A stretch of DNA of 64,000 nt, from NCBI GenBank assembly GCA_021818985.1, contig JAKASO010000003.1, forward strand, positions 1-64,000, given 5' to 3'. Every line of letters starts with the position of its first letter. The stretch's first letter is position 1. The notes under the pieces were generated by a model. That model searched no databases and was not told the origin of the DNA. It was given only the letters and a program-made list of their open reading frames with translations. Source of the DNA: a bacterium (GTDB lineage: Bacteria > SZUA-79 > Acidulodesulfobacterales > Acidulodesulfobacteraceae). The position numbers were made by a program, and so were the translations under genes. Below are positions 1-35,633 of this stretch, piece after piece.

Positions 1-429
1 CCGCAGAAGGCTTTCGTCCTTTTTTACCCGTTTTCTTTTTGTAGTAGTAAGAACTCGGGGAAAGGCCGACGTATTTAAGAACTTCGGCTATTTTATCTTT
101 GTATTTATTTGCTAATTCAACCTTGTTAGGTTTCTTAAGTAGAGTTTTTTTTAAAAGCTCGTCTTTTATCTTAAGCTCAAATTCCTTTTCACCTAAAAGG
201 CTTTTAAGCTTTTCGTTTTCATACTGAAGCTTTATACGCTTACGGATCCTTCTTGTTTTCTTTTAAAGCCGTAACACCGTTGCTAATGAATATCTTTTTC
301 CATTTATAGAAAAGGCTTTGTCCTATTTCGTATTTTCTTAAAGTCTTAAGGAACGCCATTTACCGTTCCTTCCTGCAGGATTGAAATCTTTTCCTCATCA
401 GTAAATTTTCTTCTTGTGTTTAGTCCCAT
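1..429 (-). pseudogene. IS3-family transposase, frameshifted and partial
   Basis: Translation starts at an ATG at 427-429 behind a good GGAGG (437-441) and reads MGLNTRRKFTDEEKISILQE, typical of the N-terminal helix-turn-helix of IS3-family OrfA. The frame stops at about 346-348. The protein resumes in another frame (KTLRKYEIGQSLFYKWKK) and a second frame change follows near 243-262. The rest then reads through a leucine-zipper-like stretch and into VLKYVGLSPSSYYYKKK, which resembles the start of OrfB. One shift could reflect the programmed OrfA/OrfB frameshift of the family, but two shifts this early, one inside OrfA, indicate decay. The catalytic DDE region would lie beyond the edge. Confidence 0.75.
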
Positions 430-481
430 TTTTTAACCTCCAATTGACTTAATTATAGTGTCTAATTTTATTCCAGTCAAT
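1..481 (-). mobile_element. IS3-family insertion sequence remnant, cut by window edge
   Basis: The left edge holds the transposase end of an IS3-type element on the minus strand. The coding part (1-429) is a broken OrfA with the beginning of an OrfB-like region. Upstream lies a Shine-Dalgarno (437-441), then a candidate terminal repeat at about 459-480, which read on the minus strand begins TGACTGGAATAAAATTAGAC. Octamers at 442-449 and 475-482 are inverted copies of each other. The outer boundary near 481 is inferred from similarity to IS3-type ends, and no target duplication can be checked because the other end is outside the window. Confidence 0.7.
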
Positions 482-602: not shown

Positions 603-866
603 TTAAAACTTTAGGCCTGACACAGAATTTTGAACGCTACCTTTTTTTACAAAAACTATATATTCGGGAGGATTAACTTCATAGGAAAGAAATTCATGAC
701 CGGTTTTTTTGCAGTAGCTTTTGAGATCTTCAATAATACCGTCATCCGATGCTGTTACTTTAAGAACTGAGCCGTCCGGAATGTTTTCAAATTCTTCTTT
801 GACCTTTAAGATAGGAACCGGACAACTCAGCCCAAAAGTATCAAGTTCATAATCGTAATCCATCAT
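603..866 (-). CDS. tusA: TusA-family sulfur carrier protein (first copy)
   Basis: This 87-residue protein has the TusA/SirA fold signature: LDTFGLSCPVPILK near the N-terminus, with the sulfur-carrying Cys15 in the CPxP motif, and a C-terminal strand ending in IVFVKK. TusA proteins carry persulfide sulfur from cysteine desulfurases or sulfur-oxidising enzymes to tRNA thiolation, molybdenum cofactor synthesis or dissimilatory sulfur enzymes. It is the last gene of an iscS-iscU-tusA run, with about 165 bp between iscU and tusA. Two ATGs stand in tandem at the start (866 or 863) and no strong ribosome site separates them. A second TusA lies at 52421-52660, so the two may have different partners. 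Which acceptor it serves cannot be read from the sequence. Confidence 0.88.
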   Translation of the reverse strand: MMDYDYELDTFGLSCPVPILKVKEEFENIPDGSVLKVTASDDGIIEDLKSYCKKTGHEFLSYEVNPPEYIVFVKKGSVQNSVSGLKF

Positions 867-1031: not shown

Positions 1032-1472
1032 CTACAGAGCTTCAAGAACCTCGTCGTGATCGTGATCGCCCGTATCCACCTTGCCCACCGGTCCCTTCCC
1101 CGCTTTTCTTGACTTATAGTCTTCAATTGCAAGGTGAAGAGCATCTGCGGCCAAATTTGAGCAATGCATCTTAACAGGCGGTAAACCATCCAACGCTTCT
1201 GCAACGACCGCATTAGAAATACTTTCAGCTTCGTCTAATGTTCTGCCTTTAACAAGCTCTGTAACCATAGAGCTTGTAGCTATGGCAGCCCCGCACCCAA
1301 ATGTTTTAAATTTAACGTCCTGTATCTTTTCATCTTTGACTTTAATATAAATTTTCATTATGTCGCCGCATGTGGGGTTACCCAGTTCGCCTACGCCATT
1401 GGCATCGGCAATCTCGCCGACATTTCTCGGATGTTCAAAATGATCCATTACCTTTTCGGAATATATTGGCAT
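1032..1472 (-). CDS. iscU: IscU/NifU-type iron-sulfur cluster scaffold protein
   Basis: A 146-residue scaffold on which Fe-S clusters are built before transfer to apoproteins. The three ligand cysteines are present: Cys35 in GNPTCGD (with the Asp37 that makes clusters labile), Cys60 in FGCGAAIA and Cys104 in MHCSNLAADAL. The preceding LPPVK segment (97-101) is the chaperone HscA recognition motif in the family. The tail from about residue 121 is a short acidic, His-rich extension (GDHDHDEV). A strong AAGGAG lies 8 nt before the ATG. It follows iscS by about 195 bp, so the pair should act together. This matters because the partner IscS lacks the usual PLP lysine. Confidence 0.93.
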   Translation of the reverse strand: MPIYSEKVMDHFEHPRNVGEIADANGVGELGNPTCGDIMKIYIKVKDEKIQDVKFKTFGCGAAIATSSMVTELVKGRTLDEAESISNAVVAEALDGLPPVKMHCSNLAADALHLAIEDYKSRKAGKGPVGKVDTGDHDHDEVLEAL

Positions 1473-1666: not shown

Positions 1667-2869
1667 TTAAGCGCTTTGAGTTGCTTTTTGAGCTTCTTTT
1701 TGCTTTTTTACCTCTTCGTACAGAGGTGACATATTTCTTAATTTTTCAACTATCTGCGGAAGCTTTTCTACAAAATACTCCGCATCACCCATAGTATTGT
1801 CTTCTCCTAATGTAATTAAAAGCGAACCTTGGGCCAACGCAGGATCAATGCCTATAGCATTTAACACATGAGAAGATTTAAGTATTTTAGATGTGCAGGC
1901 AGACCCGCTTGCTACCATTATGCCATTATTATTAAGCCACATAAGTATTGATTCCCCTTCGATATATTTAATGACAAAATTGATATTATTAGGAAGCCTT
2001 TTTTCTGGATGCCCATTCAAATATACCTCATCCATCGAAGATAAAACACCGGAAATAATATGTTTCTGGATGGGGAAAAGATGCTCCTGCCTTGCTTTAA
2101 ACTCATTTTTTGCAAGCTCGCAGGCAACTCCGGCGCCAACTATGGCGGGAACATTTTCGGTGCCTGCCCTTCTGCCAAACTCCTGCACCCCGCCGTCTAT
2201 TAAAGGCATGATGCGCACGCCTTTTTTAAGGTAAAATATTCCGCTTCCCTTAGGCCCGTAAAACCTGTGCGGAGCGCATGAAAGCATATCAACATCAAGA
2301 TTTTTAACATCGGTTTCGATAAAACCGCATGAGGAATTGGCATCGGTATGTATAAATGCGCCGCCTTCATGGGCTATTTTAGATATATCTTTTATATTTT
2401 GAATAGTGCCTATTTCATTTGAAGCATGCGTAATGCTTACAAGAATCGTATCTTTTCTCATGGCTTTTTTGACATCGGCGGGATCAACAAATCCATACCT
2501 GTCAACAGGCACCTGAGTAAATTCAAAGCCAAGCCTTGCTAATGATTTTACAGCATTTAAAACGCTAAAGTGTTCAATAGACGAAGTTACGACATGTTTA
2601 CCCTTTTCGAGACGCGCAAAAGCTGTCCCTTTTATTGCAAGATTGTTAGACTCCGAACCGCTCGAGGTAAATATGACCTCTGCGCTTGAACAGTTCAGCA
2701 GGGAAGCCGCCTGATTCCTCGCCTTATCTAAAGCCTCCCTTGGAGCATCGCTAAGCGTGTGTATGCTTTGCGGATTGCCGTATTCTTGTTCAAAAAACGG
2801 ATCCATAGCTGTTTTTACTTCAGGTCTCATTTTCGTAGCGGCAAAATGATCTAAATTTATTATCTTCAT
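1667..2869 (-). CDS. iscS: IscS/NifS-like cysteine desulfurase with Arg at the PLP-lysine position
   Basis: A 400-residue class V aminotransferase-fold protein. The ATG at 2867-2869 is chosen because GGAGG lies 5 nt upstream; a longer frame beginning seven codons earlier lacks a ribosome site. Family features seen: SSGSESNNLA (69-78), His100 in IEHFSV, THASNEIGTI (148-156), the cofactor Asp177 in HTDA, GTENVPAIVG (236-245), and the mobile-loop cysteine Cys325 in SGSACTSK. The normally invariant SxHK lysine that binds PLP is Arg202 here (CAPHRFYGPKG), and the Gln that usually follows the HxDA motif is also replaced. Archaeoglobus fulgidus IscS is a known precedent: it lacks this lysine and forms clusters with IscU. 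This protein also shares its NGHPEKRLPNN and MSPLY segments as I recall them. It may therefore act as a structural partner or cysteine ligand in place of a true desulfurase. Confidence 0.9.
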   Translation of the reverse strand: MKIINLDHFAATKMRPEVKTAMDPFFEQEYGNPQSIHTLSDAPREALDKARNQAASLLNCSSAEVIFTSSGSESNNLAIKGTAFARLEKGKHVVTSSIEHFSVLNAVKSLARLGFEFTQVPVDRYGFVDPADVKKAMRKDTILVSITHASNEIGTIQNIKDISKIAHEGGAFIHTDANSSCGFIETDVKNLDVDMLSCAPHRFYGPKGSGIFYLKKGVRIMPLIDGGVQEFGRRAGTENVPAIVGAGVACELAKNEFKARQEHLFPIQKHIISGVLSSMDEVYLNGHPEKRLPNNINFVIKYIEGESILMWLNNNGIMVASGSACTSKILKSSHVLNAIGIDPALAQGSLLITLGEDNTMGDAEYFVEKLPQIVEKLRNMSPLYEEVKKQKEAQKATQSA

Positions 2870-3140: not shown

Positions 3141-3530
3141 TTATTTTAAAGAATCCAGATACGAAGCAAGCTCAAAAAGTTCTTTTTTAGAAAGCATCTT
3201 ATGGTCAGGCATAATGGCCATATAGGATTTTCCGTTAATTTTTATCATCGAACCGGATTTAAAATGCTTGTCCGGCGCCTTTATCTGAATTTCTATCCAG
3301 TGAATAGAATGTTTAAGAAGACCTTCTTTTGAAAGATCGGGTCCGATTGTCCCGCCTTTGCCGTCAATAGCGTGGCAGGCAAAACAGTCTATCCCTTTTT
3401 TATTGGAATGAATAAGCTGAAAGCCTAGCTGAGCCGCGCTGAGTTTAACAGGAGCCGTGATCGCACGGACGACGACATACCCTAAAATCACTACTAATAA
3501 AATAAAAATAAGCGTAAAAGTTTTTTTCAT
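3141..3530 (-). CDS. membrane-anchored monoheme cytochrome c
   Basis: A 129-residue class I cytochrome c. An N-terminal hydrophobic segment (residues 4-23) acts as signal or anchor and has no clear cleavage site, so the protein probably remains tethered to the periplasmic face of the inner membrane. The single heme site is Cys49-Cys52-His53 (CFACH), and Met107 or Met112 in MPDHKML could be the sixth ligand. The GxxxIGPDL segment after the heme site is typical of the small cytochrome c fold. Its ribosome site (GGGAGG 3 nt before the ATG) is strong. It stands alone between apt and the iscS run, so its redox partners are not evident. It could be a partner of a terminal oxidase or of a periplasmic dehydrogenase. 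Confidence 0.85.
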   Translation of the reverse strand: MKKTFTLIFILLVVILGYVVVRAITAPVKLSAAQLGFQLIHSNKKGIDCFACHAIDGKGGTIGPDLSKEGLLKHSIHWIEIQIKAPDKHFKSGSMIKINGKSYMAIMPDHKMLSKKELFELASYLDSLK

Positions 3531-34211: not shown

Positions 34212-35633
34212 CTATCCTATATCGTTATATTGCCTTAACTTAAACCTCACGCCTTTTTCGAGGGCTACTTTCCGAACCGCCTCCACGTCAAGACCTTCAA
34301 GTCCAACCGCAGTAACAACGACATCTTTTATACTTTTTCTGGACTCGTCTATAAAATCCAACACGGAACTATAAGGATCAAGCCCTTTTTTTAAGCGGGG
34401 CTTGCATATTTCGTTATAATAACTGCTGTTATGGGCATTTAAACTGACGCTCACGCTGTCAATGTATTCCCCCAGTTCTTTCACGACATTACGCCCGTAA
34501 ACGGCGTTTGCAAGCCCGTCGGTATCAAGCCTTACTCTAATCCCTTTATTTTTCAAATGTATAGCCGTTTTTTTTAAGGTATCCAACCTCAGCGTCGGTT
34601 CACCCAGACCGCAAAAAACCACCTCTTTAAAGTTATAATAGCGAAAGACGGAAGAAATGACTTCTTCAAAATCAGGTTCCTTTTTTAGTTCAAGGTTATA
34701 GCCTTTAACATTGTAGTTATTCTTACCGTCCCAGTATTTGGGGCAGAAGCCGCATTCGTTCGTGCATCTATTTGTAAGGTTGACATATACACCAGCGCCT
34801 ATTTTATATGCAACGGCAGGAAAAAATCCGGCAACATCCGTCACTCCAAAAAGATTTACGGTATTTTCAACCGTCAATTCTTTAAATTGTTCCAGATCAA
34901 CGTCTTTCTGAGCGGCTATCACCTCTGCTACAAACCGGACATAAGACGGCTCATTTCTTTTCCCCCTGAATTTTTGCGGAGCAAGATACGGGCTATCAGT
35001 TTCTATTAATATCTTTTCGTCGGGTATATCTTTGGCAATCTGCCTTAAGTATGAATTTTTCTTATATGTTATATTACCCGAAAAAGATATAAAAAATCCA
35101 AGATCAATAAAATCCTGCGCCGTTTTAAACTCCTCGGCCGAAAAACAGTGAATTACTCCGCCATAAAAACCGCCCGAAGATCCCGCATAACTTCTTAATA
35201 CCTCTAAAGCATCTTTATACGCATCCCGGATGTGGATAATTAATGGAAGTTTGTGTAAAAGCGCAAGCTCGATCTGAAATTTAAAAAGCTCCTTCTGGGC
35301 TTTTTTCTCTATATCACCGAGGCTATCCGGAAAATAATCAAGTCCCGTCTCCCCGACTGCAATAATTCTTTCTTTATGTTCCGCATAGTATTTTTTAAAC
35401 AATCTTTCAATATCGTTAAAGCTTTTATACGGGCTTTTAGGATGAACCCCAAGCGTCGTCCAGATGTTGCCGTTATTCGAAAGAATTTTGAATGTTCGTT
35501 CTATCCGGTCATTTTTGGCAAGGGAACCGATAGAAACAGCATGCGTTATACCGTTTTTACCCATTCTTTCAAGCACGGCGCTTAGATCACCGTCAAAATC
35601 CGGCATCTCTAAATGGCAGTGAGAATCTATCAT
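34212..35633 (-). CDS. TatD-family hydrolase fused to a radical SAM domain
   Basis: A 473-residue fusion. Residues 1-265 are a TatD metallohydrolase: His5 and His7 (DSHCHL), Glu95 (AVGETGLDY), His134 (IIHIRDA), His162 (VIHCFS) and Asp213 (IETDSPYLAP) make the metal site. Residues 277-473 are a radical SAM domain with Cys290, Cys294, Cys297 (RCTNECGFC), the CX3CX2C cluster motif, then FCGLGEPTLR as the SAM-binding loop. TatD-linked radical SAM proteins are a known but uncharacterised family. The gene lies between metG (6 nt) and larC (5 nt). Function is unknown; a DNA or tRNA repair role is a guess. Confidence 0.88.
   Translation of the reverse strand: MIDSHCHLEMPDFDGDLSAVLERMGKNGITHAVSIGSLAKNDRIERTFKILSNNGNIWTTLGVHPKSPYKSFNDIERLFKKYYAEHKERIIAVGETGLDYFPDSLGDIEKKAQKELFKFQIELALLHKLPLIIHIRDAYKDALEVLRSYAGSSGGFYGGVIHCFSAEEFKTAQDFIDLGFFISFSGNITYKKNSYLRQIAKDIPDEKILIETDSPYLAPQKFRGKRNEPSYVRFVAEVIAAQKDVDLEQFKELTVENTVNLFGVTDVAGFFPAVAYKIGAGVYVNLTNRCTNECGFCPKYWDGKNNYNVKGYNLELKKEPDFEEVISSVFRYYNFKEVVFCGLGEPTLRLDTLKKTAIHLKNKGIRVRLDTDGLANAVYGRNVVKELGEYIDSVSVSLNAHNSSYYNEICKPRLKKGLDPYSSVLDFIDESRKSIKDVVVTAVGLEGLDVEAVRKVALEKGVRFKLRQYNDIG

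Follow-up and report, generated by a model that had tools for sequence, protein, structure and literature searches.

The window, by which we mean the whole 64,000-nucleotide stretch of DNA that was analysed, encodes an IscS/NifS homologue in which arginine stands at the position of the lysine that forms the aldimine with pyridoxal phosphate (PLP), and in which two further catalytic residues have been replaced while the cysteine of the mobile loop is kept (Table 1). The loss of the catalytic residues with retention of this cysteine suggests that clusters are made from sulfide or from sulfur carried by TusA, and we consider it probable that the protein is an IscS fold without desulfurase activity that acts as an obligate partner of IscU, with sulfide or TusA persulfide as the sulfur input.

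Table 1. Features of the lysine-less iscS locus (window positions) and of the lysine-bearing NifS found elsewhere in the genome (last line)
Feature	Position	Strand	Basis or context
Lysine-less IscS/NifS homologue	1667..2869	minus	Pfam Aminotran_5, 231 bits
AGG codon, Arg202, where E. coli IscS has the PLP-aldimine Lys206	2264..2266	minus	alignment
Ser where E. coli IscS has the PLP-contacting Gln183	2333..2335	minus	alignment
Leu where E. coli IscS has the substrate-binding-site residue Arg354 (substrate Arg)	1817..1819	minus	alignment; A. fulgidus IscS also has Leu
Mobile-loop Cys325 (E. coli Cys328), kept, SGSAC	1895..1897	minus	27/27 orthologues; 43/43 compared homologues
IscU/NifU-type scaffold	1032..1472	minus	NCBIfam TIGR03419, 214 bits, above cut-off
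TusA-type sulfur carrier, CPVP catalytic cysteine	603..866	minus	Pfam TusA, 73 bits; aligned to E. coli TusA
Small cytochrome-c-like protein, CFACH (CxxCH)	3141..3530	minus	no Pfam match at 1e-8
Lysine-bearing NifS, intact HK	G000:C83:78407-79513 (L001)		order cysE - rrf2 - nifS - mnmA

The open reading frame called by the program runs from 1667 to 2890 and opens with an upstream TTG at 2890; the true start is most likely the ATG at 2869-2867, which is preceded by GGAGG and yields a protein of 400 residues. The protein has the class-V aminotransferase fold and domain (Pfam and an AlphaFold2 model), and the model (pLDDT 84.6) adopts the IscS/Nfs1 fold, its nearest structural matches being IscS/Nfs1-IscU complexes, that of Archaeoglobus fulgidus among them. 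Residue 202, counted from the ATG, lies in the motif SCAPHRFYGPKG, for which the E. coli IscS counterpart is SFSGHKIYGPKG. The first-pass annotation had reported the arginine at this site, the loss of the glutamine that follows HxDA, the retention of Cys325, and the order iscS-iscU-tusA on the minus strand, and each of these was borne out. It had overlooked the third loss, at the substrate arginine, where E. coli IscS reads SSIRFS and the present protein GSLLITLG. The equivalents of His104, Asp180, and Asn155 are kept.

In E. coli IscS the single changes K206A, Q183E, and H104Q each abolish desulfurase activity (PMC9978102). Its sequence makes it very unlikely that the lysine-less protein acts as a desulfurase. 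With canonical IscS/NifS (E. coli IscS, TIGR03402) it shares the fold, the domain, the loop cysteine, and the genetic link to IscU, but it misses three catalytic residues and scores 452.5 bits against NCBIfam NifS TIGR03402, under the equivalog cut-off of 530.75; because of the three residues and the curated score, it should not, on present sequence grounds, be classed as the cysteine desulfurase NifS. PLP binding by the purified protein had been put forward as a refutation of the non-desulfurase idea, but it would not be decisive, because E. coli K206A retains some PLP binding and forms intermediates (PMC9978102), and the structure of A. fulgidus IscS is drawn with PLP (PMC9769115, Fig. 1). 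PLP may likewise still bind the present protein non-covalently, given the remaining equivalents of His104, Asp180, and Asn155. These retained PLP contacts, together with the behaviour of K206A, also bear on the idea that catalysis proceeds without lysine by way of an external aldimine, either His201 or Arg202 serving as the base, and yields a desulfurase that is slow or altered, or else another reaction altogether. Other PLP enzymes do use histidine in the role of the lysine. Position 206, however, is R, H, S, Q, or D in related lineages and some members have Gln or Leu for the preceding histidine, which, with the loss of Gln183 and Arg354, resembles a relaxed site, and we regard such catalysis as improbable.

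The searches at family, order, and phylum level covered the same 30 genomes, all of phylum SZUA-79 (Ca. Acidulodesulfobacteriota), which we equate with the group published under the name Ca. Acidulodesulfobacterales (PMC6776010). Alignment with these relatives, a check proposed in the first-pass annotation, placed arginine at the lysine position in all 27 full-length orthologues, each from a distinct genome (16 with AGA and 11 with AGG), and the loop cysteine was likewise invariant among them. The Gln183 position holds Ser, Thr, or Ala within the phylum, with Thr or Ala in sister species. The median pairwise dN/dS of the 27 sequences was 0.055, which indicates strong purifying selection on the lysine-less protein across the phylum. 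A sequencing error, a recent pseudogene, or neutral decay could in principle produce such a codon; no point in support of that reading was found, and the presence of arginine in every genome through two codons, the low dN/dS, the open frames, and the conserved synteny rule out error, pseudogene, and chance so firmly that we give it practically no credence.

A motif census of 386 genomes, whose statements outside the phylum rest on the matches listed, gave almost only HK outside the phylum among those matches. The NifS homologues without HK among the matches listed were those of G115 (HS), G258 (HR), G314 (HQ), and G113 (HL); motif matches in G268 and G385 proved not to be NifS. The phylum of G258 contained five more lysine-less proteins, one with HR (G386) and four with His at the lysine position (G120, G389, G390, and G391). 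The class of G115 yielded G255, with an ND motif like that of A. fulgidus; this bacterial IscS (L127 / L135) reads SANDLYGPKG and is adjoined by tusA. In a residue comparison of 43 homologues, A. fulgidus IscS included, 26 kept the lysine, Gln183, and Arg354, 16 lacked all three, and the protein of G113 lacked the lysine only. The three residues are thus lost together, in 16/16 triple-loss sequences from several lineages vs 0/26 lysine-bearing homologues, and the triple loss extends to A. fulgidus IscS and, among bacteria, to two or more further phyla. The G113 protein is a case separate from the triple-loss proteins. Its gene (L096, G113:C35, 8781-10454, minus strand) lies in a full isc operon, rrf2-iscS-iscU-iscA-hscB-hscA-fdx, and encodes Leu for the PLP lysine and Gln for His104 with Gln183 and Arg354 kept; a second NifS gene, with HK, lies 6 kb away.

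Trees were built with every active-site column removed and, separately, on all columns. With the active-site columns removed, the proteins of the phylum, those of the G258 phylum, and those of G115 and G314 formed one clade (97/93), and A. fulgidus IscS and G255 formed another (98/95); a tree that forces all 16 triple-loss proteins into a single clade was not rejected (p-AU 0.53). Since the loss runs through the whole phylum and belongs to a larger bacterial clade, it is not a private adaptation. Because the trait has only about three origins, which leaves too few independent pairs for a phylogeny-corrected test, its associations with TusA and among the residues cannot reach phylogeny-corrected significance.

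The closest parallel is A. fulgidus IscS, which has no desulfurase activity and gives a cysteine ligand to the IscU cluster (PMC7585200, PMC9769115). The first-pass annotation had drawn this comparison from the lysine, which is Asp in the archaeal protein, and the likeness goes further: in its structures (PDB 4EB5/4EB7/4HVK) Lys199 is replaced by Asp, Gln183 by Ala, and the substrate arginine by Leu, the same three sites as are lost here. The two proteins are about 45% identical when aligned by structure and have in common the kept loop cysteine, the IscU partner, and a sulfidic lifestyle, so far as the last can be read from members of the order, which reduce sulfate in acid mine drainage and encode dsrAB, dsrL, dsrEFH, and sqr, as published for the order and not read from this genome (PMC6776010). 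They differ in that the A. fulgidus protein is archaeal, carries ND vs HR here, and groups with G255 outside the clade of the present protein, although a single clade was not rejected. In its sequence features the present protein thus matches the A. fulgidus type of lysine-less IscS. A second archaeal example, IscS1 of Methanosarcina acetivorans (MA0808), is likewise without the catalytic lysine and has an IscU as its partner (PMC7585200); its host, which possesses SufBC as well, carries three IscS copies in all. Lysine-less IscS as a kind is already known from Archaea through two proteins in the open-licence literature searched, in which we did not find a bacterial form that spans a phylum, is linked to TusA, and occurs where no SUF is detected.

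The window IscU has its Cys, Asp, Cys, LPPVK, and Cys elements all present, and so keeps its cluster ligands. Throughout the phylum the lysine-less iscS keeps its linkage to iscU and tusA, for which two gene orders occur, one genome (L050) being an exception with tusA and no iscU nearby; the gene for the cytochrome-like protein lies upstream of iscS in many phylum members but not in every one. An insertion-sequence-like remnant whose transposase-like frame is apparently broken lies downstream of tusA, at the edge of the window (1-440, minus strand). In all 12 long phylum loci tusA lay within about 2 kb of the lysine-less iscS, and it adjoined the lysine-less genes of G258, G386, G120, G389, G390, and G255. 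It was not adjacent to those of G115, G314, or G113, and it was near none of the 16 lysine-bearing control loci. No clear covariation emerged among residues of the IscS-TusA interface. Homologues of SufB, SufD, or SmsB were found in none of 22 phylum genomes and in all of 14 control genomes. Transcripts of nifU, nifS/iscS (copy unspecified), sirA (tusA), and suf are among the order's most abundant in acid mine drainage (PMC6776010); if the absence of SufB/D also holds for the genomes of that study, the "suf" reported there cannot be SufB/D.

The genome, estimated to be 100% complete, holds one lysine-bearing NifS, with the motif SFSGHKFYAPKG, and so answers the first-pass call for a second HK desulfurase. 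Its gene sits between an Rrf2-type regulator and mnmA, no iscU was found beside it (C83), and relatives occur in most phylum members; from this context the enzyme likely serves tRNA thiolation. Its presence means that cysteine-derived persulfide is still available to the cell. The first-pass annotation had reasoned that TusA in the same run would need another source of persulfide: TusA is indeed there, but this recurrent neighbour of lysine-less IscS may be the donor and not a client without a source. The main rival explanation starts from the lysine-bearing NifS. In it, persulfide made by that enzyme passes to TusA and on to lysine-less IscS and IscU, so that the lysine-less protein is only a docking relay and cysteine is the sulfur source. 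That E. coli IscS hands persulfide to TusA (PMC2854127) and that this genome and most phylum members carry a canonical HK NifS speak for such a relay. Against it, that NifS gene lies next to mnmA with no iscU found there, which fits tRNA thiolation, and in E. coli IscU and TusA are competitors for IscS (PMC11302665). Neither objection is decisive, and we judge the relay unlikely.

For the preferred reading, an inactive IscS fold as partner of IscU, the steps would be as follows. The lysine-less protein would dimerise and dock IscU, and Cys325 would be offered to the nascent cluster as a ligand, as a persulfide carrier, or as both. No sulfur would be taken from cysteine by the protein and no PLP chemistry would take place; sulfur would arrive as sulfide or as persulfide from the linked TusA, delivery by TusA being the less certain half of the proposal. 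The first-pass suggestion of a scaffold partner that is not a desulfurase gains from the triple loss combined with the kept loop cysteine and IscU linkage, as in A. fulgidus IscS; the absent activity, the cluster ligation, and the sulfur source are what we infer from this pattern. Known minimal systems differ from such a module. SMS (SmsCB) builds clusters from sulfide without a desulfurase (PMC12192291), but the present module consists of TusA, IscU, and a protein of IscS fold, and the 22 phylum genomes yielded no SufB/SmsB homologue. MIS, which is IscS and IscU without carriers, is defined with a working desulfurase, whereas here an IscS-fold protein that has lost the desulfurase residues accompanies IscU.

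We tentatively put forward a wider proposal, in which an ancient family of inactive IscS proteins that spans both domains constitutes a third way of feeding IscU, the loop cysteine receiving sulfide or TusA-borne persulfide without any PLP chemistry, and in which TusA, lysine-less IscS, and IscU form the main Fe-S machinery of the whole phylum, without SUF or SMS. The usual view is that sulfur always enters ISC-type cluster assembly through a cysteine desulfurase. If the proposal is true, sulfide or carrier persulfide can sustain ISC assembly, in a clade of several phyla with one phylum fixed for it and no SUF seen there; the finding would bear on how early, sulfide-rich cells made clusters, and in sulfidic microbes the NifS/IscS label may be wrong for many genes. 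The three-residue signature allows such genes to be recognised. Elsewhere in the window, an open reading frame at 34212-35633 on the minus strand fuses a TatD DNase domain with a radical SAM domain.
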